Positions 3,695 through 61,678 of a stretch of 64,000 nt of DNA are shown piece after piece. The notes below the pieces were generated by a model. The model had not been told where the DNA came from. It ran no database searches and worked only from the letters and a program-made list of their open reading frames with translations. This stretch comes from an uncultured Rhodospirillales bacterium. Lineage in GTDB: Bacteria; Pseudomonadota; Alphaproteobacteria; ATCC43930; CGMCC-115725. The position numbers and the translations under genes are program-made. The stretch covers positions 1 to 64,000 of the forward strand of contig CAIXXC010000476.1 in NCBI GenBank assembly GCA_903923205.1, written 5' to 3'. How positions within the stretch are numbered: position 1 is the stretch's first letter; each line of letters starts with the position of its first letter.

Positions 3695-4818
3695 TGGCTA
3701 TCGCGCGCACTGACCAATCGGCAATGGGGCGTTGGTGGTGGACTGTCGATCGCTGGACCGTGCTGGCGCTGGTCGTGCTGTGCGGATTTGGCGCGCTGAT
3801 GGCAATGGCGGCAAGCCCGGCGGTCGCCCAACGGATCGGGGCTGACAGCTTTCATTTCGTCCATCACCAGTTGGCGTTGCTGCCGGCGACCATGGTCATC
3901 ATGTTTGCCGTCTCCTTGCAATCGCCCCGCTCGATCCGGCGGACGGCGGCGATAACCCTCGCGATCTCCCTCGTGCTGCTGGCCTTGACCTTTGTGATCG
4001 GGACCGAGGTAAAAGGCGCGCGGCGTTGGATCGGCATGGGCGCACTCTCGATCCAGCCCTCGGAATTCGTCAAACCCGCCTTTGCCGTGATCTGCGCCTG
4101 GCTGCTGGCCGAACAGAAGAACCCCTCGAGCCGAATTCCTGGCAATGCGATCGTCATGGGGTTGTTTCTGCTGATCGTGGCGATGCTGATCAAGCAACCC
4201 GATCTTGGCCAGACGATCGTGATCTCTGCGATTGTCTTTGCTGAAGCCTTTCTCGCCGGCCTGCCGGTGATCCTGGTCGCCGTCGGGGCCATGGTAGGGG
4301 TCGGTGGCTTAGCCGCCGCCTATTTTCTCCTGCCTCATGTTCATTCCCGCATCGATCGCTTTCTCGATCCATCCGGCGGTGGCGGTTATCAGGTGACCCG
4401 GTCGCTTGAAGCCTTCTCGAATGGTGGGCTCTGGGGTCGTGGTCCCGGCGAAGGCACGGTTAAGAACTATCTGCCCGATGCCCATGCCGATTTCGTCTTT
4501 GCCGTTGCCGGTGAGGAATTCGGGCTGATCGTTTGTCTGGTGATCGTGCTCCTGTTCGGCTTTGTTGTCCTGCGTGGCTTTGCCCGCCTGATGCAGGAGC
4601 AGAACCTCTACGTCGTCCTTGCTGGCGCCGGACTGCTGGTCCAGTTCGGGCTCCAGGCCGTCATCAACATGGCGTCGACGCTCCATCTTATCCCGACAAA
4701 GGGCATGACCTTGCCGTTCCTGTCCTATGGTGGCTCCTCATTGCTTGCGCTTGGCCTTGGCATGGGCATGGTCCTGGGACTTACCCGCAAGCGCTTCGGC
4801 ACCGGTGAATTGACATGA
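3694..4818 (+). CDS. ftsW: FtsW, SEDS-family septal peptidoglycan glycosyltransferase
   Basis: Polytopic membrane protein (374 residues, about ten membrane segments) that polymerises lipid II at the septum with the cognate class B penicillin-binding protein. SEDS signatures are visible: KGARRWIG near residue 108, IQPSEFVKPAF just after it, KQPDLGQT near 167, and the C-terminal PFLSYGGSSLLAL. An AGGAGG Shine-Dalgarno lies at 3681-3686 inside the end of murD. The gene sits between murD and murG, the usual dcw place for ftsW rather than rodA. Confidence 0.96.
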   Translation: MAIARTDQSAMGRWWWTVDRWTVLALVVLCGFGALMAMAASPAVAQRIGADSFHFVHHQLALLPATMVIMFAVSLQSPRSIRRTAAITLAISLVLLALTFVIGTEVKGARRWIGMGALSIQPSEFVKPAFAVICAWLLAEQKNPSSRIPGNAIVMGLFLLIVAMLIKQPDLGQTIVISAIVFAEAFLAGLPVILVAVGAMVGVGGLAAAYFLLPHVHSRIDRFLDPSGGGGYQVTRSLEAFSNGGLWGRGPGEGTVKNYLPDAHADFVFAVAGEEFGLIVCLVIVLLFGFVVLRGFARLMQEQNLYVVLAGAGLLVQFGLQAVINMASTLHLIPTKGMTLPFLSYGGSSLLALGLGMGMVLGLTRKRFGTGELT

Positions 4819-5909
4819 GCCGCTACGTGATCCTGGCTGCGGGCGGTACCGGTGGGCATTTGTTCCCGGCAGAAGCGCTGGCGCGGGAATTCCTGAAGCG
4901 GGGTCGGCCCGTCGCGCTGATCACCGATCGTCGCGGGGGCAATTTTCCGGTCTCCGGTGTTGAGACCTTCCGCATCCCCGCAGGGCAGTTCGGCGCGGGG
5001 CTTCTGGCCAAACTGCGCGGTGTTTACGATCTTGCCCGCGGCTTCATGGCGGCAAGCCGGTTGTTGCGCCGGCTCAATCCCGGCGCGGTTGTCGGTTTTG
5101 GCGGCTATCCGTCGATGCCGACGATGCTTGCTGCCCAACAACTCGGGATGGCCACGATCATTCACGAACAGAATGCCGTGCTCGGTCGGGCCAATGCGAT
5201 GCTGGCGCCGCGGGTCGATCGGATTGCAACCCATTTCGCCACGGCCGAGGGCCTGGCCGGTCGGTTGCGGGACAAGATATCGCCGACCGGCAATCCGGTG
5301 CGGCCGGCGATCTCGGTACTTCGCGAAACACCCTACGTCCCACCCAACGCGGAAGGGGCGTTCCGGATTCTGGTGATCGGGGGCAGCCAGGGCGCGCGGA
5401 TTTTATCGGCGGTGGTGCCGGATGCGCTGTTGTCCCTTTCACCGGCACTGCTGGCCCGGATCGAGTTGAGCCAGCAGGCGCGGCCTGAAGATCTCGACGC
5501 TGTCGCCGCGCGCTATGCGTCGGCTGGGCTCAAGGCCGAGGTCAAACGTTTCTTCGACGATATGCCGCAGCGACTTGGTGGCGCACATCTTGTGATCGGT
5601 CGGGCCGGGGGCTCCACGACGGCTGAACTCACTGTCGCAGGGCGGCCGGCAATTCTGGTTCCCTATGCCGCTGCAATCGCGGACGAGCAGACGGCGAATG
5701 CCCGGAACCTGGTTGCAGGCGGTGCCGCCTGGTTGCTGACGGAGGCGGAATTCACGGCACCTGCGCTCGCGGCACTGGTCGAGCGACTGGCGTCCTCCCC
5801 GGAATTGCTGGCGGTGGCCGCTGCTGCCGCTCTGTCCATGGGCGAACCGGATGCCGCCATGAGGCTCGCTGATTTGGTTGAACGCGTCGAACGGGAGCGC
5901 GCCGCATGA
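4815..5909 (+). CDS. murG: MurG, lipid II synthase (GlcNAc transferase)
   Basis: Membrane-associated GT-B glycosyltransferase that adds GlcNAc to lipid I to make lipid II. Its 364 residues start with the donor-fold glycine loop [19 protein letters not shown] near residue 95, [11 protein letters not shown] near 116 and GGSQGAR near 193 follow. The C-terminal UDP-GlcNAc site motif [11 protein letters not shown] is also present. It overlaps ftsW and murC by ATGA on each side. Confidence 0.98.
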
Positions 5910-7327
5910 GAGCCCTTCCTCTTACCATCGGCACGGTTCATTTCGTCGGCATCGGCGGTATCGGCATGAGTGGAATCGCCGAAATTTTGCATAACCTCGG
6001 CTATTCCGTGCAGGGCAGCGACGTCGCCGAGAGCGGCAACACCCTGCGGCTCATCAATCTCGGTATTCCGGTTCATATCGGTCATCGGGCGGAGAATATA
6101 GATCAGGCTCAGGTGATCGTTGTGTCGTCGGCCATCAAATCCGACAACCCCGAACTTCTGGCCGCGCGGCAAAGACTATTGCCCGTCGTCCGACGTGCCG
6201 AGATGCTGGGCGAGTTGATGCGGCTGAAATGGTCGATCGCGGTTGCCGGGACCCACGGCAAGACCACGACGACGTCGCTGATCAGCGCGATGCTCGAGGC
6301 TGCCAAGTTCGACCCAACGGTCATCAACGGCGGCATCATCAACGCCTATGGCACAAATGCCCGGCTCGGCAGTGGTGAGTGGTTGGTGGCCGAGGCCGAT
6401 GAGAGCGACGGCACCTTTACCAAATTGCCGGCAACGATTGGCATCGTGACGAATATCGACCCCGAACATCTCGATTTCTATGGTTCGGTCGAGGCGCTTC
6501 ATGCCGCCTTCGAGAGTTTTGTCTCCAATATCCCGTTTTACGGCTTCGCCGGGCTTTGCATCGACCATCCGGTGGTCCAGGGCATGATCGCGCGCGTCCC
6601 CGATCGTCGCATCATCACCTATGGATTAACGCCGCAGGCCGATGTCCGCGCGGTCGATATCACCTTCGGCAGCGATGGTGCGAAGTTCGATGTGGTTGTC
6701 ACCGACCGCGCCCAGCAGGAAAGCCGGGTCATTCCACGCTTTCGTCTACCGATGTTCGGCCTGCACAATGTCCAGAACGCCCTCGCGGCGATCCTCGTCG
6801 GTATCGAAATGGGCGTCGACGATGCCGTGCTGCGTGCCGGACTTGCCAGCTTCAAGGGCGTCAAGCGCCGCTTCACCAAGACGGGTGAGTCGGGTGGAAT
6901 CACCGTGATCGACGATTATGGTCATCACCCCGTCGAAATCGCGGCGGTGCTGCGCGCGGCGCGACAGGCGACGACAGGCAATGTCATTGCCGTCGTCCAA
7001 CCGCACCGTTTCTCACGCGTAGCCCATCTGTTCGAGGATTTCTGCCGCTGCTTCAACGATGCCGATGCCGTCCTGGTGGCTGATATCTATGCTGCAGGCG
7101 AAGCGCCGATTGCCGGCATCGATCGCGATTCCCTGGTTGCCGGTCTGGTGTCCCACGGTCATCGCCATGCCGAGGCGATGAAGGATCCGGCGCATCTCCC
7201 CGATATCGTCAGCCGCCTCGCGCGGCCGGGTGATTTTGTCGTTTGCCTTGGTGCTGGCTCGATCACCCATTGGGCCAATGCGCTGCCGCAGGGGCTTGAC
7301 CGCGTGAAGGCCGGTGGTGGGTCATGA
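5906..7327 (+). CDS. murC: MurC, UDP-MurNAc--L-alanine ligase
   Basis: First amino-acid ligase of the pathway, adding L-Ala to UDP-MurNAc in the cytoplasm. The 473 residues open with the MurC-type [16 protein letters not shown] dinucleotide-like loop. The ATP P-loop [13 protein letters not shown] is near residue 116, EADESDGTF near 162, and [10 protein letters not shown] and QPHRFSR lie in the C-terminal domain. Start and stop both overlap the neighbours by ATGA. Confidence 0.98.
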
Positions 7328-8262
7328 ACAAGGCGACCCTTATCCCCCGCCTTGTCGATCGTCTGCCGAAGGTTCGCGGTCGCCTGGTCGAGAACGCGCC
7401 GCTGGCGCCGCTTAGTTGGTTTCGCGCCGGTGGCCCCGCAGAGGTGCTCTTCAAGCCGGCGGATATTGGTGACCTGACCGCATTCCTGACGGCCAAACCG
7501 ACGGATATCCCTGTAACGATATTGGGGGTTGGCTCTAATCTGCTGATCCGCGATGGCGGTGTGAAGGGCGTCGTGATCAGGCTTGGCAAGGCCTTTGCCG
7601 AGGTCACGATCCACGACGACATCATCTTCGCCGGTGCGGGCGCGCTTGATACGACGGTTGCGCTGGCTGCGGCAGAGGCTGGCCTTGGCGGGCTTGAGTT
7701 CCTGTCGGGAATTCCGGGGACGATCGGTGGCGGCCTGCGCATGAACGCCGGCGCTTATGGTCGCGAGTTCCGCGACGTACTGCTTGCGGCGACAGCGATC
7801 GACGGCGCCGGCCAACATTTCGAAATCACGGGCGCCGAAATGGGCCTGAGCTATCGCCACTGCGACGCGCCTGAGGACTGGGTCTTTCTTCATGCGACCC
7901 TGGCGGCGACAACTGCCGATCCCGTCGAGATTCGCGCCCGCATGGCCGAGATCAAGGCCAAACGCGAAGAGAGCCAGCCGATCCGCACGCGCACCGGGGG
8001 CTCCACCTTTGCCAATCCGCCGGGGGCGAAGGCCTGGGAACTGATTGATCGTGCCGGTTGCCGTGGCTTGACCCGGGGCGGCGCGATGGTGTCGGAGCTT
8101 CATACCAATTTCCTGGTCAATCTTGGTGGCGCCACGGCGGCCGATATCGAGGGGCTGGGAGAAGAGGTGCGCCGTCGCGTGTTCGAGATGTCGGGAATCC
8201 GGCTCGAATGGGAAATCCGGCGTATCGGCAGTCCGATTCCCGATTTGCGGGAGGCGCTGTGA
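7324..8262 (+). CDS. murB: MurB, UDP-N-acetylenolpyruvylglucosamine reductase
   Basis: FAD-dependent reductase that turns UDP-GlcNAc-enolpyruvate into UDP-MurNAc. It has 312 residues, the short type II-like length. Flavin-binding motifs are seen at [12 protein letters not shown] (near 68) and [20 protein letters not shown] (near 131). The catalytic-region GGSTFANP near 221 and a C-terminal [12 protein letters not shown] are also present. The stop overlaps the ddl start by one base. Confidence 0.97.
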
Positions 8263-9173
8263 TGATGCGTCGTGTTGCCGTGCTGATGGGAGGCTGGTCT
8301 GCCGAGCGAGAGGTCTCGCTTTCCAGCGGTCGGGGCTGTGCCGAGGCCCTGCGGTTGGCAGGATACGAGGTGACGATGATCGATGTCGGCCGCGACCCGG
8401 CCGCGTTGTTGGCCGCGCTCACACCGCGGCCGGATGTTGTGTTCAATGCCTTGCACGGACGCGGCGGCGAGGATGGCACCATTCAGGCGATCCTGAACAT
8501 GCTGCACATACCCTATACCCACTCAGGACTACTTGCGTCGGCCGTCGCGATGGACAAGCCGATGGCAAAATGCGTGTTCCACGATGCCGGTCTACCCGTT
8601 GCCGAAGGCCGCGTTGCCAGCCGGGAAGAGATTGTGGCGGGATCAGTGATGGCTGTGCCGTACGTCGTGAAGCCGACCAACGAAGGCTCTTCTGTTGGCG
8701 TGATCATCGTCCGGGATGGTGAGAACCGGGTCATCCGCGACGATGAGGTGAATGACGAGATGTTGGTCGAACGGTTCATTCCGGGCCGCGAGTTGACCGT
8801 CGCGGTTATGGGCGATCGTGCCTTGGGTGTTATCGAGATCGTCTCCCGCGGGACCTGGTACGATTACGACTCCAAATATGCCACCGGAGGCTCGGAGCAT
8901 CTCTATCCGGCACCGATCCATCCGGCCGTCTACGAAGAAGCGTGCCAGATCGGCGTGACGGCGCACCGGTCGCTGGGATGCAGAGGGGTCAGCCGATCCG
9001 ATCTGCGTTATGACGACACCGATGGTGAGCCAGGGCGGCTCTATTTGCTTGAGGTAAACACCCAACCCGGTATGACCCCAACCTCGTTGGTACCCGATCT
9101 TGCCGCCGCGAATGGGATCAGTTTCGGCAGCCTTGTCACCTGGCTTGTGGAGAACGCCCGATGCGACGCTTGA
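8262..9173 (+). CDS. ddl: D-alanine--D-alanine ligase
   Basis: ATP-grasp ligase that makes the D-Ala-D-Ala substrate of MurF; 303 residues. The frame is open further upstream inside murB, but the protein clearly begins [17 protein letters not shown], so I use the ATG at 8262, which shares a base with the murB stop; 8265 is an equal alternative. HGRGGEDGTIQ near 62, KPTNEGSSVGV near 136, and the metal/ATP motif LGCRGVSRSD near 238 then EVNTQPGMTPTSL near 267 are intact. Its 3' end overlaps ftsQ by 13 bases. Confidence 0.97.
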   Translation: MMRRVAVLMGGWSAEREVSLSSGRGCAEALRLAGYEVTMIDVGRDPAALLAALTPRPDVVFNALHGRGGEDGTIQAILNMLHIPYTHSGLLASAVAMDKPMAKCVFHDAGLPVAEGRVASREEIVAGSVMAVPYVVKPTNEGSSVGVIIVRDGENRVIRDDEVNDEMLVERFIPGRELTVAVMGDRALGVIEIVSRGTWYDYDSKYATGGSEHLYPAPIHPAVYEEACQIGVTAHRSLGCRGVSRSDLRYDDTDGEPGRLYLLEVNTQPGMTPTSLVPDLAAANGISFGSLVTWLVENARCDA

Positions 9174-48462: not shown

Positions 48463-49239
48463 TCAACTCGCCGATAGCCCGCCATCCAGCTTCAGCTCCG
48501 ATCCTGTCATGAAACGACTTTCGTCCGAAGCAAGGTATATCGCCGCATGGCCGACATCCGACGGGTCGCCGAGGCGGCCCAAGGGCACCTGCTTTGCCAA
48601 TTTCTCGTAAAGCTCCTCCGTGGCCCCCTTGGGCGAAAGGTCGTTCAGGATCGGTGTCTTGATGAAGGCCGGATGGATGGAGTTGCTGCGAATATCCAGC
48701 CGCAGCCGGGCGCAGTGCAGGGCAACGGATTTGCTCAACAGCCACACTGCCGCCTTGGAGGCATTATAGGCGGCAAGGTTGTGGCCGGCGACGAGGCCCG
48801 AGATGGACGAGATATTGATGATCGAGCCCGGCTGATGATCGCGCATCACGCGCAAGGCCGACTTGATGCCGAAGAACACGCTGTCGCTGTTCACTTTCAT
48901 GCAGCGGTCCCAGTCGTCGAGTGACAGGGACTCAACCGACCCCATCACCGCGATCCCGGCATTATTGACCAGCACATTGATGCCGCTCATCGCCGCATCC
49001 GCCGCGCTGACGACCTCGTCCCAGCGCGCGGCATCGGTGACGTCATGGCCGAAGGCGAAGGCAATCTCGCGCCCGTGTTCGGCATTGAGGGCGGCGGCGG
49101 TTGCGCGGGCACCTTCCTCATTGCGGTCGGTCAGGGTGACGATGGCACCCTCGGCGGCCATCATTCGCCCGATCGTCGCGCCCAGCCCCTGCGCGCCGCC
49201 CGTGATCAATGCCTTTTTGCCCTTCAACCGATCCACCAT
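48463..49239 (-). CDS. Classical SDR oxidoreductase
   Basis: NAD(P)-dependent dehydrogenase of 258 residues; GGGAGA precedes the ATG. Cofactor loop ITGGAQGLGATIG near 12, NNAGIAV near 90, the catalytic Ser in ISSISG near 142 and YNASK near 156 are intact. It is close to the 3-hydroxysteroid/3-alpha,20-beta dehydrogenase type, but the substrate is unknown. Its stop is 22 bases upstream of the multicopper oxidase start. Confidence 0.88.
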   Translation of the reverse strand: MVDRLKGKKALITGGAQGLGATIGRMMAAEGAIVTLTDRNEEGARATAAALNAEHGREIAFAFGHDVTDAARWDEVVSAADAAMSGINVLVNNAGIAVMGSVESLSLDDWDRCMKVNSDSVFFGIKSALRVMRDHQPGSIINISSISGLVAGHNLAAYNASKAAVWLLSKSVALHCARLRLDIRSNSIHPAFIKTPILNDLSPKGATEELYEKLAKQVPLGRLGDPSDVGHAAIYLASDESRFMTGSELKLDGGLSAS

Positions 49240-49406: not shown

Positions 49407-50339
49407 ATGACCTCCATTCCCATCGCCATCCCTCAACTGCCTGACGCGATGCGTGCGCGCTGGCCATATCGGCCATTGTTTGCCGCGGTCAACGGCTGGC
49501 GCATGCATTATGTCGATGAAGGCGATCCTTCGGACGACCCCATCGTCCTGCTGCACGGCAATCCAACCTGGGGGTTCCTCTATCGCGACATCATCCCGCC
49601 CCTGGTTGCGGCCGGATTCAGGGTGATCGTCCCCGATATGATCGGCTTCGGGCTGTCGGAAAAGCCTGTGCGCGAACAGGCGCATTCGCTTGACGGCCAT
49701 ATCGCCAATCTGACCGGTCTCATGCGTCAGCTTGGCCTCTCCCGCATCAACCTCGTCTGTCACGATTGGGGCGGACCGACGGGGCTGGGCTTCGCGCTTT
49801 CCAATCTGGCGATGATGCGTTCCCTGGTCATCATGAGCACCTGGGCATGGCCGACGCCGCCCGCCGAATTCCACACTCGAATCTTTCCGTGGCGAACAAT
49901 GCATGCCCCGCTGGTCGGACCCTATCTGCTGGGCCGACACGGCGCATTGGTGGGACGCGGCATGTATCTTTCCGTCGTCGATCGACAGAAATTCCGCGCC
50001 GAGGCGCAGCTGGCTTATGAGAGCATGCTGCCCGATCCCGCGACACGGCTGCTGACCTGGGCATGGCCGCGCTGGATCCCGCTCGACGATCAGGCCCGTG
50101 CCTATGATCGCTTCACCTGGCTGGAGCAGGAGCTTGGCAAATGCAGTTTGCCAGCCTTGATCATCTGGGGCCGTGAGGATGATGTCTTCGATGCCGCGAC
50201 CTTTTCCGCCCGCTTCAAGACGCTGCTGCCCCATGCCGAGGGGCCGTTGCTGGTAACGGGCCGACATTTTGTTCAAGAAGATTCCAGCCCGGAGATCGCC
50301 GCCGCCGTGCTTGATTTTATCGGAAGGTTGCCCGCATGA
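49407..50339 (+). CDS. Haloalkane dehalogenase-like alpha/beta hydrolase
   Basis: 310-residue hydrolase whose nucleophile is Asp120 in CHDWGG, as in haloalkane dehalogenases and epoxide hydrolases. Asn52 in HGNPTW and Trp121 after the nucleophile match the pair that holds the halide in haloalkane dehalogenases, which favours that activity. The base His is in TGRHFVQED near 289. The Shine-Dalgarno is weak. It diverges from the SDR at 49239 and shares ATGA with the next gene. Confidence 0.82.
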   Translation: MTSIPIAIPQLPDAMRARWPYRPLFAAVNGWRMHYVDEGDPSDDPIVLLHGNPTWGFLYRDIIPPLVAAGFRVIVPDMIGFGLSEKPVREQAHSLDGHIANLTGLMRQLGLSRINLVCHDWGGPTGLGFALSNLAMMRSLVIMSTWAWPTPPAEFHTRIFPWRTMHAPLVGPYLLGRHGALVGRGMYLSVVDRQKFRAEAQLAYESMLPDPATRLLTWAWPRWIPLDDQARAYDRFTWLEQELGKCSLPALIIWGREDDVFDAATFSARFKTLLPHAEGPLLVTGRHFVQEDSSPEIAAAVLDFIGRLPA

Positions 50340-50734
50340 GCACGCTGCGCATCATCCCGCCACCGCCGCTTGACGAGACCCGCCTTGCCTACCTTCTGGC
50401 AGAGGACCGGCTTGGCCATTATCCCGAGTTCCGCGAATTCTTCTCCAGCGCCTTCGATCTTGAGCGTATCGGTCTTGCACAGCCGGGTTATGTTGAGGCC
50501 ACTTCGGGTGCGATCTACGCTCTCGTCTTCATTGGCAGGAGTGGTGAGGCTTTTCCTGCCGGGGTGGAGATATATGCCGTGGTCCCCGCGCTGGAGCCGC
50601 TTGACGAGATGCAGGTGGATCGCGACCTGTGGGCGATATTGCGCTGGATGATGGAAGGCATCGGCGGCGCTTGGTCCGCCGCAAAACTCGACGCGACGGG
50701 CAAGCTCTACAAGCTTGCCGTCGCAGAACAGTAA
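50336..50734 (+). CDS. Uncharacterised 132-residue protein
   Basis: No family recognised. It is a soluble, acidic-to-neutral protein with no signal or membrane span. An N-terminal IIPPPPLDETRLAYLLAEDRLGHYPEFREFF is followed by a hydrophobic middle (IYALVFIGRSGEAFPAGVEIYAVVP) and a helical end (LWAILRWMMEGIGGAWSAAKLDATGKLYKLAV). The ATGA overlap with the dehalogenase-like gene implies joint translation and a shared function. Confidence 0.75.
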   Translation: MSTLRIIPPPPLDETRLAYLLAEDRLGHYPEFREFFSSAFDLERIGLAQPGYVEATSGAIYALVFIGRSGEAFPAGVEIYAVVPALEPLDEMQVDRDLWAILRWMMEGIGGAWSAAKLDATGKLYKLAVAEQ

Positions 50735-52967: not shown

Positions 52968-54230
52968 CTAAGCCAGCGCCTCGGCCACCGTCCTTGCCTT
53001 CACCCATTTATCGACGTGGTGAAGGCTGTGGCGGATCATGACTTCGCCGTCCTGCAACTGCATGAAGGGAAACGCACCGGATTCGATGCCGCGCTGGGTG
53101 CGTTCGGTGTTGGTCACGTCTTCCAGCAGGATTTCGGCGATCCGGGCGACATAGAGTTCCTGCTGCAGGCGCTCGCGGGCGGTGGTGGCGTCCGGGATGT
53201 GGAATTCGGCTTCCCAGCGGGTTGAATTCGGGCTCACGGGCCAGAAGCGATGCGACCAGAAACCACCCGGTGATAGGTCGATCTGGAAGTTCGGGAAGGC
53301 CCAGGTGACGTCGACGGCCCAATGCTGCGAGCGGCTCGGGTTGACGGCGGGATGGGCAAGGAATGCCTCCATCGCGCCCTTCTGCGCCGCGCCCAGCACG
53401 TTGCCGGTATCGATATTGGCATAGGCCATCTGCTCGACCCTGGCGTGGGTCGGCGGCGCGTAATCGGGATTGCCGAAGGTCGAGACCTGGCGATGCGGCC
53501 CCCAGAATTCGGCGCTGATCGGACGCGAGAACGGGTTGACCCGGTTTGCGAAGGTTGAACCGATCGTCGCCGGGTGGATGCAGGGGATGTGGTAGGTCTC
53601 GGCGAAGGCGTCGGCGATGACCTTCCAGTTGGCGTTGAGATGAGCCTCGAACAGGATCGACTTGGTGGCGTTGCCCCAGACCATGTTGGTAAAGGCCTGA
53701 CCAAAACCGCCCAGGTACGTCTCCAGCGAAACCTCCGGCTCGGGCTGGTGGTTGATGAAAATCCAGCCCTCCCAGACCGCCGTCGCGATCGGCCTCAGGC
53801 CGCATGTCTTTTTGTTAACAGAGAAGAAATTGGCCTCGTCCGGGATGCCGAGCAAGCCGCCATCATTGCGATAGGTCCAGCCGTGATAGCCGCAGGAAAA
53901 CCGCGCTGCCTTGCCCTTGGCCTCAAGCACGACCTGGTTCCCGCGATGGGCGCAGACATTGTAGAAGGCCTGGATATGGTCTTTGCTGTCGCGCGTGACG
54001 ACGATGGGCGCGTTCCAGATTTCGATGTTCTTGGTGACGAAACTGCCGGGCTCAGGCAGTTGCTCGACCCGGCCGATCGTCAGCCAAGCGCGTTTGAAAA
54101 GATTTTCGCGCTCAAGTTCGAAATATTCCGGCGAATAATAGGGGTAGGAGGGCACAGGGCCTGTGTCGAGGCCGGCCATGCGGGTGATATCGCTGGCGCA
54201 GATATCCGTGATCTTGGGCATGTCGTTCAT
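52968..54230 (-). CDS. Rieske ring-hydroxylating oxygenase alpha subunit, copy 1
   Basis: Oxygenase component with a Rieske 2Fe-2S centre and a mononuclear iron site. I start at ATG 54230 (MNDMPKITDI), 420 residues; ATG 54221 is an alternative. Cluster ligands are Cys93-x-His95 (CAHRGN) and Cys113-x2-His116 (CGYHGW). Iron ligands are His213 and His218 in ETYHIPCIHP with the acid probably further along; Glu210 takes the place of the bridging Asp. It ends the minus-strand operon FAH-monooxygenase-SDR-small protein-Rieske, and is paralogous along its whole length to the gene at 58202. No reductase or ferredoxin is in the operon. Confidence 0.93.
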   Translation of the reverse strand: MNDMPKITDICASDITRMAGLDTGPVPSYPYYSPEYFELERENLFKRAWLTIGRVEQLPEPGSFVTKNIEIWNAPIVVTRDSKDHIQAFYNVCAHRGNQVVLEAKGKAARFSCGYHGWTYRNDGGLLGIPDEANFFSVNKKTCGLRPIATAVWEGWIFINHQPEPEVSLETYLGGFGQAFTNMVWGNATKSILFEAHLNANWKVIADAFAETYHIPCIHPATIGSTFANRVNPFSRPISAEFWGPHRQVSTFGNPDYAPPTHARVEQMAYANIDTGNVLGAAQKGAMEAFLAHPAVNPSRSQHWAVDVTWAFPNFQIDLSPGGFWSHRFWPVSPNSTRWEAEFHIPDATTARERLQQELYVARIAEILLEDVTNTERTQRGIESGAFPFMQLQDGEVMIRHSLHHVDKWVKARTVAEALA

Positions 54231-54246
54231 GGCGTCACACTGTCCT

Positions 54247-54630
54247 TCAAGCAACGGGCTGAGGCCCGCGAAGGATGCGGATCTTGTGCGGGTAGGGAGA
54301 GCGCGGCGCGCGGGGCATGCGGTGCAACTCGACCGCCATCGCCGCCTGGGCAAGGGCGAGGAGCAGTTGATAAAGCCGCAATGTCGGCCCCGGCAGGGCG
54401 GTCAGCGAATGCTGATCGACATGGCTCAGGATAGCTTCCGAGCGGACGAGCATCTTGTCGTAGAAATACTGGATTTCGGCCATGCCGTGGCGGGCGCGGA
54501 TGTCCCAGCGCGCGTCGGCGCTCTCGCCAAGCCAGTCGGGGATGAATTCCAGCAGGTCCTCGAACCCGGCGGGCAGGATCGGCTCATCCGTCGTTTCGCT
54601 GGTCCGCTTGATCGCGGCGGATGTCACCAT
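54247..54630 (-). CDS. Small protein partnered with Rieske oxygenase, copy 1
   Basis: 127 residues, no family recognised. TAGGAGA stands before the ATG at 54630. After a polar N-terminus of about 20 residues, the protein looks wholly helical: GFEDLLEFIPDWLGE, MAEIQYFYDKMLVRSEAIL, LRLYQLLLALAQAAMAVELHRMP. It ends in a Pro/Arg tail (RAPRSPYPHKIRILRGPQP). It aligns without gaps to the protein at 59455-59802; by hand I count 46 identities in 108 positions. It is not an NTF2-fold beta subunit by length or pattern. It lies 16 bases before the Rieske gene. Confidence 0.85.
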   Translation of the reverse strand: MVTSAAIKRTSETTDEPILPAGFEDLLEFIPDWLGESADARWDIRARHGMAEIQYFYDKMLVRSEAILSHVDQHSLTALPGPTLRLYQLLLALAQAAMAVELHRMPRAPRSPYPHKIRILRGPQPVA

Positions 54631-54640
54631 CTCGGGTCTC

Positions 54641-55399
54641 CTATTTCGCGGTATAGCCGCCATCGACCGGGATCGCGGCACCGGTGATGAACGAGGCGTG
54701 ATCCGACAGCAGCCAGACGGCTGCCGTTGCAATTTCCGGCGGGGCGGCGAGGCGGCCGATCGGTTGCTGATCGATCAGGTATTGCTCCAGCCCCGGCGCG
54801 TTCGCCATCGCGCCAACCAGCATAGGCGTCAATGTCGCGCCGGGCAGGATCGCGTTGACGCGGATACCACGGGTACCGTAGTCGAGCGCGCCCGCCTTGG
54901 TCAGGCCGATAACGGCATGCTTGCTGGTGACGTATTCCGCTGCGGCGGGAAAGGCGGTAACGCCCGCCGCCGAGGAAGTGTTGACGATCGAGCCGCCGCC
55001 GGTTTTCAGCATGGCGGCGATCTCATGTTTCATGCAGAAGAACGTCCCCGTCACGTTGATGTCCAGCGCGCGGCGAAAGGTCTCGGCGGTCAATTCGTGC
55101 AGGATGGCGCTGCTTTGCGGGATGGCGGCGTTGTTGAAGGCACCATCGAGCCGACCATAGGCTCTGACGGCGGCTTCCACCATCGCCTCGACCTCGGCTT
55201 CGACCGCGATGTTGGTGCGGATGAATTGCGCGATTCCGCCGGTCTGACCAATCAGGCCGACGGTCTCCTCGCCGCCGGGGATGCCGATATCGGCGATCGT
55301 GATCAGGGCACCCGCCTTGGCCGCCAGCAACGCGGCCTCACGACCCATGCCGCTGCCGCCGCCGGTAACGATGATCGACTTACCCTTGAGATCGTACAT
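54641..55399 (-). CDS. SDR oxidoreductase of Rieske module 1
   Basis: 252-residue NAD(P)-dependent dehydrogenase. VTGGGSGMGREAA near 11, NNAAIPQ near 88, the catalytic NTSSAAG near 140, YVTSK near 156 and PVDGGYTAK at the end. In Rieske pathways an SDR usually rearomatises the cis-dihydrodiol; that role is inferred here. It lies 10 bases before the small protein gene. Confidence 0.88.
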   Translation of the reverse strand: MYDLKGKSIIVTGGGSGMGREAALLAAKAGALITIADIGIPGGEETVGLIGQTGGIAQFIRTNIAVEAEVEAMVEAAVRAYGRLDGAFNNAAIPQSSAILHELTAETFRRALDINVTGTFFCMKHEIAAMLKTGGGSIVNTSSAAGVTAFPAAAEYVTSKHAVIGLTKAGALDYGTRGIRVNAILPGATLTPMLVGAMANAPGLEQYLIDQQPIGRLAAPPEIATAAVWLLSDHASFITGAAIPVDGGYTAK

Positions 55400-55426
55400 C
55401 CCGCGTTTCCTCGTGTTTTCTTATGG

Positions 55427-57052
55427 TCAAAGAGCCGCGCCGGTCACGCGGGCCAGCAGGGCGTCGAGATCGCCGGGCAGATCATCGCCGCGCCACGCGA
55501 CATGCTGATCCGGGCGCACCAGCAACAGGTTGCGTTCATAGATCGGTCGCAAATCGGGTCGGTCGAGGCGAAGCACGCTGAGCGGCACACCGCGCTTGGT
55601 CGCGGTCGCTTCGATTGCTGCGGTGTCGGAATCGCCAAGCACCACCAGGGTAAAGTACAGGCCGAGCCGGTCATGGATGCGTATCCCATCGGCGAGGAAG
55701 ACATGGGGCAGCCGCGCGCCCGGCCAGGTCGACGGGCGATAGGTGATCGGATCGACGGGGGGCGGGGAATCCTCCGCGACGATGATCGGCGAGCCGTCAT
55801 AGCGATAGCCAAGCTCGACGCCCCAGGATTCGTTTTCGATATTGCCGAGCGCCGCGATTTTCCGCCCCGCTTCCGCGCGCCTGGCCTCGGCCTCAGGCCC
55901 CAGGCCGTCAAGATCACCGGCTTGGGCGAAAACGCCGCCGATCTCCATGCGCACGCCCATGTGACGCTGCGACGCCTGGAGATGCCACCACGCGGTCGGG
56001 CGGCGCTCCAGATCATGGGCGATGAGCAAATTTTTGCCGCCCCATCCCTCGATCCGGGCGGTCAGCATCCAGGCAAGGCCGATGGCGTCGGCAATCCCGG
56101 AATTCATGCCGTAGCCGCCTGTGGGCACGAACTGGTGGGCGGCGTCCCCCGCAAGAATTACCCGGTCCCTGCCATAGGATTGGGCGACGACGAAATGCGC
56201 GGCCCAGGGGTTGGCCTGGAGAATTTCATACTCGAACTTGGTCCCGGCCCAATCTTCAAGCAGGTCTTCGGGGCGCAACTGCGCCGGGTCCATGCCGGGG
56301 AAAAGCCAGCGCTGTAGGGTCCAGGTATCCTTGTCGTTCTGGGCGATCAAGGTGCCGGTGGCGCTCTGGTAGTGCCAGGCGATACCCCAGCGGTTGAGCA
56401 CGTCAAGCGCGGTTGAGCGGAAATGCACCATATAGGCACCGGCGACTTCAAACTGGCCGTCCATCTCGATGCCCAGTTCACGGCGCACGGTGCTGCCGCC
56501 GCCATCGCAACCGGCGAGGAACTGACTGCGCACCAGGATCGGCGCGCCATCGCGCGCGCGGATTTCCGAGGTCACCCCGCTCTCGTCCTGCTCGACGATC
56601 CGCTCGAACGCGGTGCCGAAGCGGACATCGATCAGCGTATTGGCGTCGACCGCAGTTTTCAGCACCGGCTCTATGACGATCTGGCTCACGCGAAGGCCGG
56701 GCTCGCTGGCCTGGCTGCCATCATTGCGCAAGGCGATCCGGGTGCGGGCATCGTTGGCCGAGGGGTAGTTGAAGCGATGCAACTCGTGGCCGGCAAAGCT
56801 GGTGATCCAGGAGATATCGAAGCAATTCTCCCTCGGGACACCGACATCCCGTAACTTGCTCTCAAGCCCCAGGCGATGGAATAACTCCATCGAACGGCCA
56901 TTGGTCAGGTCCATCTTGGGATGGCGCGTCGTGGTCGGGTTGCGCTCGACCAGGATCGAGCGCACGCCGTAGCGTGCGAGCTCAAGCGCGAGGGTCATGC
57001 CGACAGGCCCTGCACCGGAAATCAGGACGGGGGTCTGGAGCGTCTCGGTCAT
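55427..57052 (-). CDS. FAD-dependent aromatic hydroxylase (MhpA/PheA-TfdB type)
   Basis: Flavoprotein monooxygenase of 541 residues. The FAD GxGxxG loop VLISGAGPVGMTLALELARYG starts near residue 9, the DG motif FLAGCDGGGSTVRRELGI is near 182, and the GD motif RVILAGDAAHQFVPTGGYGMNSGIADA near 295. The C-terminal thioredoxin-like extension, with DRPDLRPIYERNLLLVRPDQHVAWRG, matches phenol and 3-(3-hydroxyphenyl)propionate hydroxylases, whose last lines read VLVRPDGHVAWR. It should hydroxylate a phenolic ring. 27 bases upstream of the SDR. Confidence 0.9.
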   Translation of the reverse strand: MTETLQTPVLISGAGPVGMTLALELARYGVRSILVERNPTTTRHPKMDLTNGRSMELFHRLGLESKLRDVGVPRENCFDISWITSFAGHELHRFNYPSANDARTRIALRNDGSQASEPGLRVSQIVIEPVLKTAVDANTLIDVRFGTAFERIVEQDESGVTSEIRARDGAPILVRSQFLAGCDGGGSTVRRELGIEMDGQFEVAGAYMVHFRSTALDVLNRWGIAWHYQSATGTLIAQNDKDTWTLQRWLFPGMDPAQLRPEDLLEDWAGTKFEYEILQANPWAAHFVVAQSYGRDRVILAGDAAHQFVPTGGYGMNSGIADAIGLAWMLTARIEGWGGKNLLIAHDLERRPTAWWHLQASQRHMGVRMEIGGVFAQAGDLDGLGPEAEARRAEAGRKIAALGNIENESWGVELGYRYDGSPIIVAEDSPPPVDPITYRPSTWPGARLPHVFLADGIRIHDRLGLYFTLVVLGDSDTAAIEATATKRGVPLSVLRLDRPDLRPIYERNLLLVRPDQHVAWRGDDLPGDLDALLARVTGAAL

Positions 57053-57124
57053 GCTGTGGGCCTTCTTTGAGCGGGTTCAGCGATCCGGTGATCGCGGGCT
57101 TGGATAATCGCCCTGTTCTCTATC

Positions 57125-57138
57125 GAACCATCTGGTCA
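57125..57138. promoter_or_regulatory. Candidate operator F, upstream of the FAD hydroxylase
   Basis: GAACC-ATCT-GGTCA; the inner part ACCA-TC-TGGT is palindromic. It matches the site at 61758 (GAACCA-N2-TGGTCA). Confidence 0.45.
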
Positions 57139-57143
57139 GGAAC

Positions 57144-57989
57144 TCAGAGCCGACTGACTTCCGCCGCGACCCGGTTTTCAATGGCACCGATCCCGGCAAT
57201 CTCAACCTTCACGATATCGCCTTCGACCAGCCATTTCGGCGGCTTCATCACGGCACCGACGCCTGCCGGGGTACCGGTGAAGATCAGGTCGCCGGGCTCA
57301 AGCGTCATGACCTTGGAGAGGTGTTCGATGATCGCGGCGCAATCGAAGATGAAATACTTGGTATTCGAATGCTGCCGTCGCTCGCCATTGACGTAGGAGC
57401 TGATCTCCAGCGATGACGGGTCAATGGCGTCGCCGGTCACAATCCAGGGGCCGACGGGCGCATGCGTGTCGAAGGATTTGCCCAGGATGAACTGGCTGGT
57501 TTTGAACTGCCAGTCCCGTACTGTCACGTCGTTGCCGACGGCATAGCCGAAGATGACCGAGGCGGCGTCAGCCCGGCTGACATGGCGGCAGCGCTTGCCG
57601 ATGACGATGACCAACTCGGCCTCGTAATCAAGCGCAGTCGAGACTTTCGGCAGGTCAATGGGATCGAACGGGCCGTTGATGGCCGTTGCTGCCTTGGCGA
57701 ACCAAAGCTGCTCGGTCGGCAGTTCCATTGCCGCCTCTGCGGCGTGATCGGCATAGTTCAAGCCAATGGCCATGATCTTGCCGGGACGCTCGACCGGCGA
57801 CAGCAGCTTGACCTCGGCGAGCGGAATGCCGCCTGATGCTGATACAAGCCCGGCGATCCGATCATTCCAGGCGGCGAAGTCGGTGATCAACGCGATCATG
57901 CCGGGCGCATCGGGGATTGGATGAACCGTCTCGCCGGTCACGAGACCGATCCCGGTCTTCCCCTTGTGGCTGTAGCGCGCGACCTTCAT
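57144..57989 (-). CDS. Fumarylacetoacetate hydrolase-family protein
   Basis: 281-residue FAH-superfamily enzyme: cleaves C-C bonds in diketo acids, or hydrates/isomerises ring-cleavage products. GLNYADHAAEA near 72, LDYEAELVIVIGKR near 118 (metal-binding Glu residues), FGYAVGNDVTVRDWQ near 150, KSFDTHAPVGPWIV near 172, and GDLIFTGTPAGVGA near 243. First gene of the minus-strand operon; its promoter overlaps candidate operator B. Confidence 0.93.
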   Translation of the reverse strand: MKVARYSHKGKTGIGLVTGETVHPIPDAPGMIALITDFAAWNDRIAGLVSASGGIPLAEVKLLSPVERPGKIMAIGLNYADHAAEAAMELPTEQLWFAKAATAINGPFDPIDLPKVSTALDYEAELVIVIGKRCRHVSRADAASVIFGYAVGNDVTVRDWQFKTSQFILGKSFDTHAPVGPWIVTGDAIDPSSLEISSYVNGERRQHSNTKYFIFDCAAIIEHLSKVMTLEPGDLIFTGTPAGVGAVMKPPKWLVEGDIVKVEIAGIGAIENRVAAEVSRL

Positions 57990-58047
57990 GACGTCTCTCC
58001 CGTTGCGGCGTTGAGCCTTGTTTTTTGCTGCGGTTTATAGCCTCTGG

Positions 58048-58075
58048 TTTCTAGCCATCCTGAACATTTGGTCAA
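58048..58075 (-). promoter_or_regulatory. Predicted promoter of the FAH-led operon
   Basis: Minus strand TTGACC (58075-58070), 16 bases, TAGAAA (58053-58048). The -35 box lies within operator B. Confidence 0.45.
58061..58074. promoter_or_regulatory. Candidate operator B (FAH side)
   Basis: TGAAC-ATTT-GGTCA, one mismatch from a perfect TGACC-N4-GGTCA palindrome, followed by AGG. Confidence 0.5.
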
Positions 58076-58096
58076 GGCAAAAGCTCCGGGCCGATA

Positions 58097-58125
58097 TTGA
58101 CCACGCGGTCAGTATCAATTAGCTT
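58097..58125 (+). promoter_or_regulatory. Predicted promoter of Rieske module 2
   Basis: TTGACC (58097-58102), 17 bases, TAGCTT (58120-58125), about 75 bases before the start codon at 58202. The -35 box lies within operator C. Confidence 0.4.
58098..58111. promoter_or_regulatory. Candidate operator C (Rieske module 2 side)
   Basis: TGACC-ACGC-GGTCA is a perfect inverted repeat. It is the best copy of the recurrent site. Confidence 0.55.
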
Positions 58126-58201
58126 CCGGCAAAATCTGAAAATTGGCCGGGGCTGCCAGCCCTGCGCGTTGCGTGATCGCGACACCGAAGGGAAACGCTT
58201 A

Positions 58202-59458
58202 ATGGCCCAGGATGCGACAGGGGCAGCCGCCACCAACTTTACCCGTGGCATCGGCCTTCATACCAAGCCCGTCCCGCTTGAGCCCTATCGCTCTGCGAGT
58301 TTCTTTGCCGCTGAACGCGACCGGGTTTTCGCGCGTGCCTGGCTGATGCTGGCGCGGGTCGAGGAATTGCCCGCTCCCGGCGATTATGTCGTCAAATCGA
58401 TCCCGACCAATGGTGTCTCGGTAATCCTGAGCCACGCCAAGGATGGCAGGATCAGGGGCTTCTACAATTCCTGCTCTCATCGGGGCAGCGAGGTTGTGGC
58501 CGGTCCCCGAGGCAACGCTGCTCGCTTCACCTGTCCTTATCACAGCTGGACCTACGCCAATGATGGTAGGCTTGTCGGCATTCCCGACGAGCCGAGTTTC
58601 TTCGCGGTGGACAAGGCGAATTGCGGCCTGACCCCAATCGCGACGGAAACCTGGGAGGGCTGGATTTTTGTTAATCTCCAGCGCCGGCCGGAAGTATCGC
58701 TGGCGATGTTCCTCGGGCCGTTCGCCGTGCACCTGGCTGGGCTGAAATACCAGGCGGCGTCGACCCCCGTCGTGCTGACCGCCGATCTCGACGCCAACTG
58801 GAAGGTCGTCATGGACGCCTTCGTCGAGACCTATCACATCCCGGTGATCCACCCGAAGACCATCGGCACGACGTTTTCGTCCAAGATGAATCCCTTCGCC
58901 CGCCTGCTCGATGCGCGGAAACTTGGCATTCATCAAGCCGTCTCGATGTACGGCAATCCCGAATATGTCGCCAATCCCGATAACCGGGTGGAGGCTCTGG
59001 CTTACAGCGCTGCGGCGACAGGCAGCGTCATCGCGGCGGCGACGACGGAGGGCGCACGGGCCTTTCTTGAGCACCCTTCGGTCAACCCCACCGGATCGGG
59101 AACCTGGTCGATGGATGTCAATCATCTGTTCCCGCACACCCATATCGATTGTGGACCGGGCGGGTTCTGGACCCATCAATTCTGGCCGACCTCCCCCAAT
59201 ACCTGCCGCTACGAGGTTCGCTTTTACGTACCGCAGGCGCAGAATGTCTATGAGCGATTCCAGCAGGAACTCTACGTCGGGCGGGTGGCCGAAATCGTGC
59301 TTGAAGACCTCAACAATGTGGCGCGCACCCAGCGCGGGATCGATACCGGCGGCAAGGATTTCATGCAGATTCAGGACAGCGAAATCGGCATCCGTCACAC
59401 GATGGAACAACTGATGAAATGGGTTGATGCCGACACCGTCGCGGAGGCCATGGCATGA
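58202..59458 (+). CDS. Rieske ring-hydroxylating oxygenase alpha subunit, copy 2
   Basis: 418-residue paralogue of the gene at 52968. AAGGGAAA precedes the ATG at 58202; the frame is open above it without a ribosome site. Rieske ligands Cys91-x-His93 (CSHRGS) and Cys111-x2-His114 (CPYHSW); iron ligands His212 and His217 (ETYHIPVIHP). Shared blocks with copy 1 include PIAT-x2-WEGWIF, NWKV-x2-DAF, the GPGGFW/SPGGFW region and the end RTQRGI...FMQ-x-QD...TVAEA. Differences concentrate around residues 160-195 and 235-300, so the two probably have different substrates. Shares ATGA with the small protein gene. Confidence 0.93.
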   Translation: MAQDATGAAATNFTRGIGLHTKPVPLEPYRSASFFAAERDRVFARAWLMLARVEELPAPGDYVVKSIPTNGVSVILSHAKDGRIRGFYNSCSHRGSEVVAGPRGNAARFTCPYHSWTYANDGRLVGIPDEPSFFAVDKANCGLTPIATETWEGWIFVNLQRRPEVSLAMFLGPFAVHLAGLKYQAASTPVVLTADLDANWKVVMDAFVETYHIPVIHPKTIGTTFSSKMNPFARLLDARKLGIHQAVSMYGNPEYVANPDNRVEALAYSAAATGSVIAAATTEGARAFLEHPSVNPTGSGTWSMDVNHLFPHTHIDCGPGGFWTHQFWPTSPNTCRYEVRFYVPQAQNVYERFQQELYVGRVAEIVLEDLNNVARTQRGIDTGGKDFMQIQDSEIGIRHTMEQLMKWVDADTVAEAMA

Positions 59459-59802
59459 GCGTGCGGACGACCTTGCCGCTCGGCTTTGCCGATCTTGAGC
59501 CTTTTGTCGAGCAATGGGCCGGTGCGACTGTGGACGCGCGGATGTATGCCCGCGCGAGCGCCGACATGGCGGGCATCCGCCGCTTTTATGAGGTCGCGGT
59601 CGCGCGCGGCGCTGAGGCGCTCGAATACTGCGCCCAATTCCCGCTCGACGCGATGCCGGATGACGCGGCTCTGCTGTTTCGCCTCATGCTCGGCCTGGCC
59701 CAGGCGTCGATTGCGGTCGAAATCCACGGCCAGCCGCGTGCGCCCGGCACGCCCTGGCCCAACTCAATCACCCTGCAGCGCGGCCCCAGCCCCTTCGGCT
59801 GA
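59455..59802 (+). CDS. Small protein partnered with Rieske oxygenase, copy 2
   Basis: 115 residues, no family recognised; about 43 percent identical by hand count to the protein at 54247, without gaps. Conserved points shared by both: GF-x-DL, W-x-G, DAR, M-A-x-I-x2-FY, a LGLAQ/LALAQ-A-x2-AVE-x-H helix and the tail P-x-RAP-x2-P-x-P...RGP-x-P. No signal, no cysteine cluster, no obvious metal site beyond the invariant Glu-x-His in AVExH. It overlaps the Rieske gene by ATGA, so one-to-one synthesis with the alpha subunit is likely. Confidence 0.87.
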   Translation: MSVRTTLPLGFADLEPFVEQWAGATVDARMYARASADMAGIRRFYEVAVARGAEALEYCAQFPLDAMPDDAALLFRLMLGLAQASIAVEIHGQPRAPGTPWPNSITLQRGPSPFG

Positions 59803-59830
59803 TCCGATCCTTCTAAGAGAGAACAATAAA

Positions 59831-60640
59831 ATGAAGAATTTGGCAGGCAAGGTGGCGATGATCACCGGTGCCGGATCAGGGATCGGTCGCGCCACGGCAC
59901 AGGTCATGGCGGCGCGCGGGGCGCTTGTCGCGGTCGCGGATATCAACATGATCACCGCGCAGGAAACGGTTGATCTGATCGCGGACGCCGGCGGTACCGC
60001 CCATGCCGTCTCCATCGATATCACCTCGGAAGCGGCGATCAAGACCGCGATTGAGCAGGTGGCGCATGACTTCGGTCGGCTTGACGTGCTGCACAACAAC
60101 GCCGCCTTCGCGCCCTTCGACGTGATCGCCAACGATACCGATATCCTGGGCATCACGACCGAGAACTGGGACCGGGTGATGCAGGGGACGCTGCGCGGGA
60201 CCATGCTGTGCTGCCGCTACGGCGTGATCGAAATGCTGAAGACCGGCGGCGGCAGCATCGTCAACACATCGTCCATGTACGGGATGAGCGCGTTCAACCT
60301 GATGCCGGCCTACAGCGTCTCCAAGGCCGGGATCAACATGCTGACGCAGAATGTCGCCACGGCGTTCGGGCGCAAGGGTATCCGCTGCAATGCCGTCGCC
60401 CCGTCCATGATCCATACGCCGATGCTGGAAGGGGCGATCCCGGCACCCTTCATCGAGATGAATATCGATGCGACCCTGGTGGGCTATCTGGGCTCGCCGG
60501 ACGACGTCGCGCAGGTCGTCGCCTGGCTGGCATCCGATGATTCCCGCTATATTACCGGCCAGATCATCCGCGCCGATGGCGGCTCGACCGCGCATCTGCC
60601 CACATATGCCGACGCCCGACGCTTCTTCGGCGCGGTTTAG
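59831..60640 (+). CDS. SDR oxidoreductase of Rieske module 2
   Basis: 269-residue SDR, third gene of module 2. ATG 59831 with AGAGAGAA upstream. ITGAGSGIGRATAQ near 12, NNAAFAP near 88, NTSSMYGMS near 150, YSVSK near 164 and IIRADGGSTAH near the end. Same likely role as the module 1 SDR, but sequence similarity between the two is only that of the superfamily. It is nearly abutting (three bases) the convergent NTF2-like gene. Confidence 0.88.
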   Translation: MKNLAGKVAMITGAGSGIGRATAQVMAARGALVAVADINMITAQETVDLIADAGGTAHAVSIDITSEAAIKTAIEQVAHDFGRLDVLHNNAAFAPFDVIANDTDILGITTENWDRVMQGTLRGTMLCCRYGVIEMLKTGGGSIVNTSSMYGMSAFNLMPAYSVSKAGINMLTQNVATAFGRKGIRCNAVAPSMIHTPMLEGAIPAPFIEMNIDATLVGYLGSPDDVAQVVAWLASDDSRYITGQIIRADGGSTAHLPTYADARRFFGAV

Positions 60641-60643
60641 CCT

Positions 60644-61078
60644 TCAAGCGCGGCTGAAGATCGGCGTGACGGTTCGCTCCGCTATCAGCCAGCCGCCATC
60701 GACCTTCGCATAGACCTCGTCGATATCGGCGACGATGGCGACCCGTGTATCACGGCTGTCATCGTCGGAACGATAAAAGGTCAGGATGCTGTGGACGGCG
60801 ACCTTGCCGTCGGCGGTCGGCGCGAAGGCGAGGTTGGTCATGATGTGGCGGGTGGTGATGTGGGTCTGGGTCTGACGCGCGGCCATCATCGCAGCAATCG
60901 CCGGACCCTCTATCGTCCCCGGATTCGGCGTGCCCGGACCGAACGTCAGGCGGGCATCGGCGGTAAACAGCGCGCCGATCTCGGCAGCGCGGCCATGATC
61001 GACCAGCCAGCAGAAGCGATGGACGACATCGGTGATCGCCAGGCGATCTTCAGCAGATAACACGCTCGGGGCGGCCAT
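60644..61078 (-). CDS. NTF2-like (SnoaL-type) protein A
   Basis: 144-residue cone-shaped-fold protein. GAGGAA precedes the ATG. ITDVVHRFCWLVDHGRAAEIGALFTADARLTFG is the N-terminal helix-strand pattern of SnoaL_4 proteins, and the C-terminal IDEVYAKVDGGWLIAERTVTPIF is the standard last strand. Such proteins are isomerases, dehydratases or oxygenase beta subunits; a small Rieske beta subunit is a possible alternative. It follows the VOC gene by 12 bases. Confidence 0.8.
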   Translation of the reverse strand: MAAPSVLSAEDRLAITDVVHRFCWLVDHGRAAEIGALFTADARLTFGPGTPNPGTIEGPAIAAMMAARQTQTHITTRHIMTNLAFAPTADGKVAVHSILTFYRSDDDSRDTRVAIVADIDEVYAKVDGGWLIAERTVTPIFSRA

Positions 61079-61090
61079 GCGTGCCGTTCC

Positions 61091-61678
61091 TCAAACCAGT
61101 TTGACGTCGGCAAGACCCTTGGCCCCCACGCGGGGCCGTTTCTTCAACTGTGCTTCCGGTTCTCCCGCTCGCAGCCGGGCGATCAGATCCTCCGGGTCGA
61201 ACTCGACGCCGATCGGGTTCTCGGCGAATTCCTCGGAATAGAAGAACTTGGTCGACTCGACCACGCTGTCATAGTTTTCGACCTGGAACTCAAGCTGATT
61301 GCCGTCGGGATCGGCGTAATACATTGAGGTCGTCGGCCCGTGATTGATGACGAAAACCGGCTTGATGCCGTGGTCGCGCAGGCGCTCGTAATGCGCCAGC
61401 AATTCGCTGAGCGAGCCATAGGTGAAGGCGATGTGATGGACGCCCGCGATGCCACCTGTCTGCTGGCCAAGATCGGGGACGTTCAGGATGGCGACACGAT
61501 GATGCTCGTCATCATAGGTCAGGAACGTCAGCAGATCATTGGCAAAGACCGAGCGCATGCCGAGCACGAGTTGATACCAGGCAACGATCTCGGCATAGCG
61601 CGAACTGCGCAGCACGAAATGCGCGAGTTTAACCGGGCGGGCAATACCGTCCGACAGGGTTGTCGCCGAGGCCGCCAT
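61091..61678 (-). CDS. VOC-family protein, extradiol dioxygenase-like
   Basis: 195 residues, with GGGAGA before the ATG. Candidate metal triad is His20 (VKLAHFVLRS), His82 (GVHHIAFTY) and Glu130 (NQLEFQVEN), the 2-His-1-Glu pattern of type I extradiol dioxygenases. The Y-x-DPDGNQLE sequence is typical of that group. A ring-cleaving dioxygenase fits the FAD hydroxylase and FAH enzymes nearby, though glyoxalase-like activity cannot be excluded. The 50-residue C-terminal tail (VVESTKFFYSEEFAENPIGVEFDPEDLIARL) also occurs in gentisate/catechol-type relatives, from memory. Confidence 0.8.
   Translation of the reverse strand: MAASATTLSDGIARPVKLAHFVLRSSRYAEIVAWYQLVLGMRSVFANDLLTFLTYDDEHHRVAILNVPDLGQQTGGIAGVHHIAFTYGSLSELLAHYERLRDHGIKPVFVINHGPTTSMYYADPDGNQLEFQVENYDSVVESTKFFYSEEFAENPIGVEFDPEDLIARLRAGEPEAQLKKRPRVGAKGLADVKLV

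Follow-up and report, generated by a model that had tools for sequence, protein, structure and literature searches.

The window, that is, the whole 64,000-nucleotide stretch of DNA analysed here, carries on opposite strands two modules in which the genes for a Rieske oxygenase alpha subunit, a small protein and an SDR dehydrogenase lie together, presumably for the attack on aromatic-type compounds (Table 1). We consider it likely that each module specifies an oxygenase built of a catalytic alpha and a dedicated helical subunit, with oxidation by the SDR as the next step, and that the two modules were separately inherited. In our reading, these Rieske oxygenases probably have in the small protein a subunit that has so far escaped notice. 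With less assurance, we also favour on balance the broader reading that it represents a third kind of Rieske subunit (helical, cofactor-free, clade-wide, non-NTF2 and giving an unlisted quaternary form), and that linC was recruited after IS6100 destroyed its oxygenase.

The six genes, which the initial annotation had described as a minus-strand SDR-small-Rieske set (55399-52968) and a plus-strand Rieske-small-SDR set (58202-60640), were all found at these positions, with the start of the minus-module Rieske gene taken as ATG 54230. The two Rieske proteins were indeed alike along their whole length (P0003 and P0004: 211/413 identical, 51%, gap-free, E=4e-164), and the small proteins aligned without gaps as claimed (P0001 and P0002: 47/109 identical by computation, 43%, E=9e-31, against 46/108 by hand); the SDRs P0005 and P0006 shared 104 of 257 positions (40%). 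Both alphas scored above the Pfam cut-offs for PF00355 and PF00848, and inspection of their alignment by eye showed that the CxH...CxxH cluster ligands and the ExYHxxxxH...ED iron site are kept in P0003 and P0004, the 2-His-1-carboxylate iron site being read from the sequence in both. In the minus module, 10 bp separate the SDR and small genes and 16 bp the small and Rieske genes, and in the plus module the start of the small gene overlaps the Rieske stop by 4 bp (ATGA).

Because they share one strand and are closely packed, the FAH-family, FAD hydroxylase, SDR, small and Rieske genes on the minus strand probably form one operon, from which the Rieske-small-SDR module on the plus strand runs divergently. 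The modules had been described as lying either side of the FAD hydroxylase and FAH genes; the positions hold, but the two genes are probably no spacer, as they share the strand of the minus module and adjoin it closely. No Rfam matches were found near the two modules. A few kilobases from P0006, the window also contains a haloalkane-dehalogenase-like hydrolase gene (49407-50336, 29% identical to a LinB fragment) and a further SDR gene (48466-49239, 41% identical to LinX), identities too low for a lin pathway to be called. The end of this hydrolase gene is overlapped by a gene for a 132-aa protein (50336-50734) without a Pfam or NCBIfam match.

Table 1. Positions of the genes in and around the two window modules, and of the lindane-plasmid modules compared with them.
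Feature	Position	Strand	Basis
Rieske oxygenase alpha, minus module (P0003 minus its first residue)	52968..54230	-	PF00355 1.2e-15, PF00848 1.2e-29
Small helical partner, 127 aa, minus module (P0001)	54247..54630	-	family A4; 43% to P0002
SDR dehydrogenase, LinC-like, minus module (P0006)	54641..55399	-	PF13561; 56% to LinC over 252 aa
FAD-dependent aromatic-ring hydroxylase	55427..57052	-	PF01494 2e-64, PF21274; NCBIfam NF004780 above cut-off
Fumarylacetoacetate-hydrolase (FAH)-family enzyme, first gene of the probable minus operon	57144..57989	-	PF01557 2.7e-71
Rieske oxygenase alpha, plus module (P0004)	58202..59458	+	PF00355, PF00848
Small helical partner, 115 aa, plus module (P0002)	59455..59802	+	AlphaFold four helices
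SDR dehydrogenase, plus module (P0005)	59831..60640	+	PF13561 2e-61; 38% to LinC
SnoaL_4 (NTF2-fold) protein adjoining the plus module	60644..61078	-	PF13577 1.1e-21
Glyoxalase/extradiol-type (VOC) protein, possible downstream pathway enzyme	61091..61678	-	PF00903 2.9e-17
linC module with cut Rieske gene, pISP4 (L001)	3946-7440		
linC module with cut Rieske gene, pMI1 (L163)	1030-8479		

Neither P0001 nor P0002 matched any entry in Pfam, NCBIfam or the PDB sequences. The family was searched with the small-protein profile alone and its neighbours were read only afterwards, the Rieske genes being counted by HMM. Across all loci, a Rieske alpha gene was located on the same strand and within 184 bp for 56 of the 58 distinct small proteins, upstream in 35 of these pairs and downstream in 21 (median gap, 55 bp), and adjacency by chance would be far lower, with 6-27 alphas per genome in the six genomes searched for all alphas. 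The neighbour count suggested by the initial annotation thus placed homologues next to a Rieske gene almost throughout rather than mostly apart from one. The two exceptions were the lindane-plasmid small gene, whose Rieske gene is interrupted by IS6100, and a true orphan (L016/L062).

Among 43 genomes of the order, the family was found in 7, one of which proved a false positive, and among 387 of the class in 22, with one match weak and doubtful; since the 398 genomes in the phylum added just one more, it appears mainly confined to this class; its matches on plasmids comprised 13 records. Two matches were rejected as false positives, one to an HEPN-type protein (G001, L017, E=4e-4) and one containing two stops (G402, L040). 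A scan of genome contigs seeded with a close pair of members yielded one locus. The window's own genome contains a third small copy beside a third Rieske gene (G000:C104, L157 8794-10423), and this pair adjoins a gene for an XylE-like ring-cleavage enzyme (extradiol dioxygenase). In the decayed locus L070 (G774:C17, 109-1725), pieces of the two genes have been kept together, the front half of the small gene running in frame into Rieske fragments that are followed by an unrelated coding region.

Within the family, Trp21, Arg29, Arg33 and an LP..F..L start are conserved. Cys or His does not predominate in any column (the highest share is 30%), and hence no cofactor site is apparent in the small protein, nor does the family possess the conserved Cys/His cluster ligands of a ferredoxin. 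PF00866, the classical beta subunit family, was matched by no member of the 54-row family alignment.

The alphas were compared in a tree of 81 sequences, and in the reverse search six genomes were screened for all alphas and 23 genomes for PF00866. All 57 small-partnered alphas fell into one clade (SH-aLRT 86) together with only four unpartnered ones, the six tested beta-partnered alphas formed a separate clade (SH-aLRT 98), and when labels were shuffled, none of 500 replicates was as low in the test of partnered-alpha clustering. On these grounds, the partnership between small protein and alpha seems to have arisen once and to have been lost a few times. Among the four unpartnered members, the alphas of L107 and L108 truly lack an adjacent small gene, so an alpha of this clade does not absolutely require the partner; the L089 sequence starts at the edge of a contig, and L030_259 lies head-on against the small gene of another alpha. 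The 23 alphas of G159, assigned by coordinates, comprised 10 with a small protein, 4 with a PF00866 beta, 9 with neither and none with both, and the eight alphas of the window's genome were divided into three, two and three, respectively. With 23 Rieske alphas and ten small genes in a genome of 2.5 Mb (contigs C3, C5, C6, C7 and C9), G159 presents a striking expansion.

Distances among alphas and among small proteins were correlated (r=0.79, permuted maximum 0.115), a correlation that co-inheritance of the two genes alone would also yield. The residue at the bridging position was Glu in all 53 readable partnered alphas and Asp in all six beta-partnered ones; Glu was also present in 14 of 17 readable unpartnered alphas, and therefore the bridging Glu is no marker of the clade.

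P0002 was modelled by AlphaFold from 46 sequences, plasmid-derived rows being left out, as four helices and a tail (mean pLDDT 93), and a PDB fold search with this model gave no match (best E 2.4). As a proxy for the complex we used the small and Rieske genes of N. colocasiae, which lie in frame with a single TGA between them; reading this TGA as Trp gave P0007, a tandem of 543 residues in which five residues form the join. The AlphaFold model of this covalently joined single tandem had a pLDDT of 91.9, with the join below 50, and a pTM of 0.90, and by the standard formula with assumed errors a loosely attached small domain would give a pTM of about 0.7. Residues 108-111 of the small protein formed a strand in the model, and as the small protein contains no other strand, this one can only pair with alpha. 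The model thus predicts a contact in which the tail of the small protein adds to a sheet of alpha, with the proviso that covalent joining itself favours contact and the prediction is not proof. The best structure match of the alpha portion was CntA (TM by target 0.83). The alpha-small complex prediction that had been put forward as a check accordingly came out in favour of contact, and together with the adjacency and the single alpha clade it lends good support to the earlier view of the small protein as an obligate partner of alpha.

In the mechanism we propose, the small protein would carry no cofactor, and its helical body and beta-strand tail, as modelled, would dock on alpha. It would most likely stabilise or assemble the oxygenase, or shape its docking and substrate face, a role resembling by analogy that of the unrelated NTF2-fold beta in classical dioxygenases. 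Judging from the protein families, alpha would add oxygen to a cyclic substrate, and an SDR such as the LinC-like P0006 would oxidise the diol or alcohol so formed; in the two window modules, enzymes encoded nearby may then carry out ring opening and hydrolysis. Both modules would be of old standing within one clade, each having been inherited separately.

A structural or assembly subunit is the most likely role, because the small protein has no cofactor ligands, its link to alpha survives all changes of neighbours, and docking is predicted. The main rival is a chaperone dedicated to assembly or maturation, which would load the cluster or iron or assemble the trimer and be absent from the finished enzyme. 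The near-constant adjacency is explained equally well by such a non-resident protein, and the helical, cofactor-free nature of the small protein, the tight operon spacing and the start-stop overlap are all in keeping with it, but the predicted pairing of the tail strand and the high pTM resemble a stable interface, and a chaperone commonly has more than one client, whereas the small genes of G159 are maintained as ten separate copies, one per alpha; we regard a chaperone as a possible but rather unlikely explanation.

A role in electron transfer, or as an adaptor on which a ferredoxin or reductase docks, appears improbable for the small protein: genes for a Rieske-type ferredoxin or VanB-type reductase do lie close by in several loci (L006, L007, L060, L064, L065, L144 and L147), but most loci have no nearby ferredoxin, those that do have the small protein as well, so that it does not replace the ferredoxin, and without a conserved Cys/His ligand it is not itself a carrier. 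Genes of one pathway may also cluster without any contact between their products, and the small protein could then be a pathway member, for instance in substrate binding or regulation, linked to the Rieske gene by neighbourhood only. We judge this very unlikely, as the other pathway genes vary by locus and the small-Rieske pair persists, all pairs derive from one alpha clade, and a contact is predicted.

The initial annotation had proposed a conserved three-part unit; this did not extend to the SDR, which proved optional, and the other neighbours likewise vary between loci. Among about forty loci surveyed with wider flanks, an SDR gene stood directly alongside only in the window modules, in L161 and in the linC-type loci, in the last with an EthD gene between, and the variable neighbours included genes for a Rieske-type ferredoxin, a SnoaL_4 protein, a VanB-type reductase and an XylE-like ring-cleavage enzyme. 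The SnoaL_4 proteins (PF13577 family) adjoin the small protein in several loci besides the window; they are not PF00866, yet we take them to share the same NTF2 fold class. With such proteins beside some modules, we do not hold that a beta-like subunit is in every case replaced by the small protein, and the earlier premise that Rieske alphas normally pair with an NTF2-fold beta or act alone was incomplete, in that an NTF2-fold SnoaL_4 protein adjoins part of these modules. The order Rieske-small-SnoaL_4 recurs in L007, L057, L060, L064 and L147, often with a Rieske-type ferredoxin, and SnoaL_4 could represent an additional subunit.

The two window modules look to have been inherited or acquired separately, because their nearest relatives are in other genomes and their gene order is lineage-specific. 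In the alpha tree, the plus alpha P0004 grouped with L018 of the same genus and with L004 on the Sphingobium plasmid pRSMS1, the minus alpha with L066 (N. colocasiae) and L003 (N. resinovorum pSA1), and the third copy, L011, away from both; the small gene follows the Rieske gene in the plus lineage and precedes it in the minus lineage. The initial annotation had taken the modules for a duplicated unit whose copies had come to serve two steps or substrates. The presence of paralogues at a single locus would suit a local duplication with divergence for two steps of one pathway, but the tree and the gene order contradict it unless gene conversion has masked the history, and we give it very little credence.

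Compared with the classical alpha3-beta3 dioxygenases for naphthalene and biphenyl, the modules are similar in their adjacent genes for a catalytic alpha and a cofactor-free small subunit and in their pathway position. They differ in that the small protein is all-helical and unrelated to PF00866 (NTF2 fold), and the alphas belong to a different clade with a bridging Glu instead of Asp. Affinity to the alpha-only (alpha3) group V enzymes CntA, GbcA and Stc2 was indicated by CntA as the best structure match and by GbcA as the best NCBIfam match (6.8e-35), the latter with 120 bits, far under the cut-off of 670, and hence below equivalog level. CntA also has Glu at the bridging position (PMC7948474). 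The neighbours here point to ring compounds, in contrast to the quaternary amines of group V (Stc2 being the stachydrine demethylase), for whose three members the available portion of a 2025 review reports no small subunit (PMC12445004). The forms given in that portion are alpha3, alpha3beta3, alpha3alpha'3 and alpha3alpha3, with no helical subunit (PMC12445004).

A search of the open-licence literature for an accessory subunit of Rieske oxygenases returned nothing relevant, and an earlier mention may exist in subscription papers. PdmAB, a phenylurea N-demethylase, was considered as a known example and set aside by size only, the N-demethylases being given as 318-364 aa in a paper that cites the original work, against roughly 420 aa for the present alphas. 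If the proposal is true, the helical subunit would add a form to the listed quaternary types of Rieske oxygenases, enzymes of central importance for biocatalysis and the breakdown of pollutants, and many alphas of this clade may look inactive when expressed without their small partner.

The nearest relatives of P0003 were the N. colocasiae alpha (71% identity) and a Rieske remnant on lindane plasmids (65% over 185 aa). In seven lindane-plasmid records with the order TonB-linC-EthD-small, the small protein is 65% identical to P0001, and its gene is followed by the start and nine further codons of a Rieske gene (MNEMTELASI) and then by the end repeat of IS6100. The Rieske gene is thus cut by IS6100 after ten codons, and its 3' part, about 80% identical at the DNA level to the N. 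colocasiae gene, is located elsewhere, adjoining another IS6100 and followed by a second SDR gene and EthD. N. colocasiae KCTC 32255 (L066) possesses an intact SDR-EthD-small-Rieske set, in which the Rieske protein starts with MNEMTELAGI and the SDR is a LinC ortholog (85% identical); no second SDR gene was found directly after this Rieske gene. The N. colocasiae set resembles the minus module in its small protein (64% to P0001) and its alpha, and differs from it by the EthD gene between the SDR and small genes.

The linC loci of pISP4, pMI1 and pSRL1 likewise resemble the minus module in LinC and the small protein, but differ in the broken Rieske gene beside the latter. With 56% identity to LinC as against 85% for the N. 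colocasiae SDR, P0006 is a distinct member with the same operon partners. The simplest account is that linC stems from a Rieske-small-SDR module whose oxygenase was lost by IS6100 events; linC would thereby have a definite set of ancestral genes. The accessible text of two comparative papers on the lin genes does not address a Rieske origin of linC (PMC4478539, PMC4289293). On pLB1, genes for Tn3-type transposition separate the Rieske remnant, which they directly follow, from the second SDR gene.
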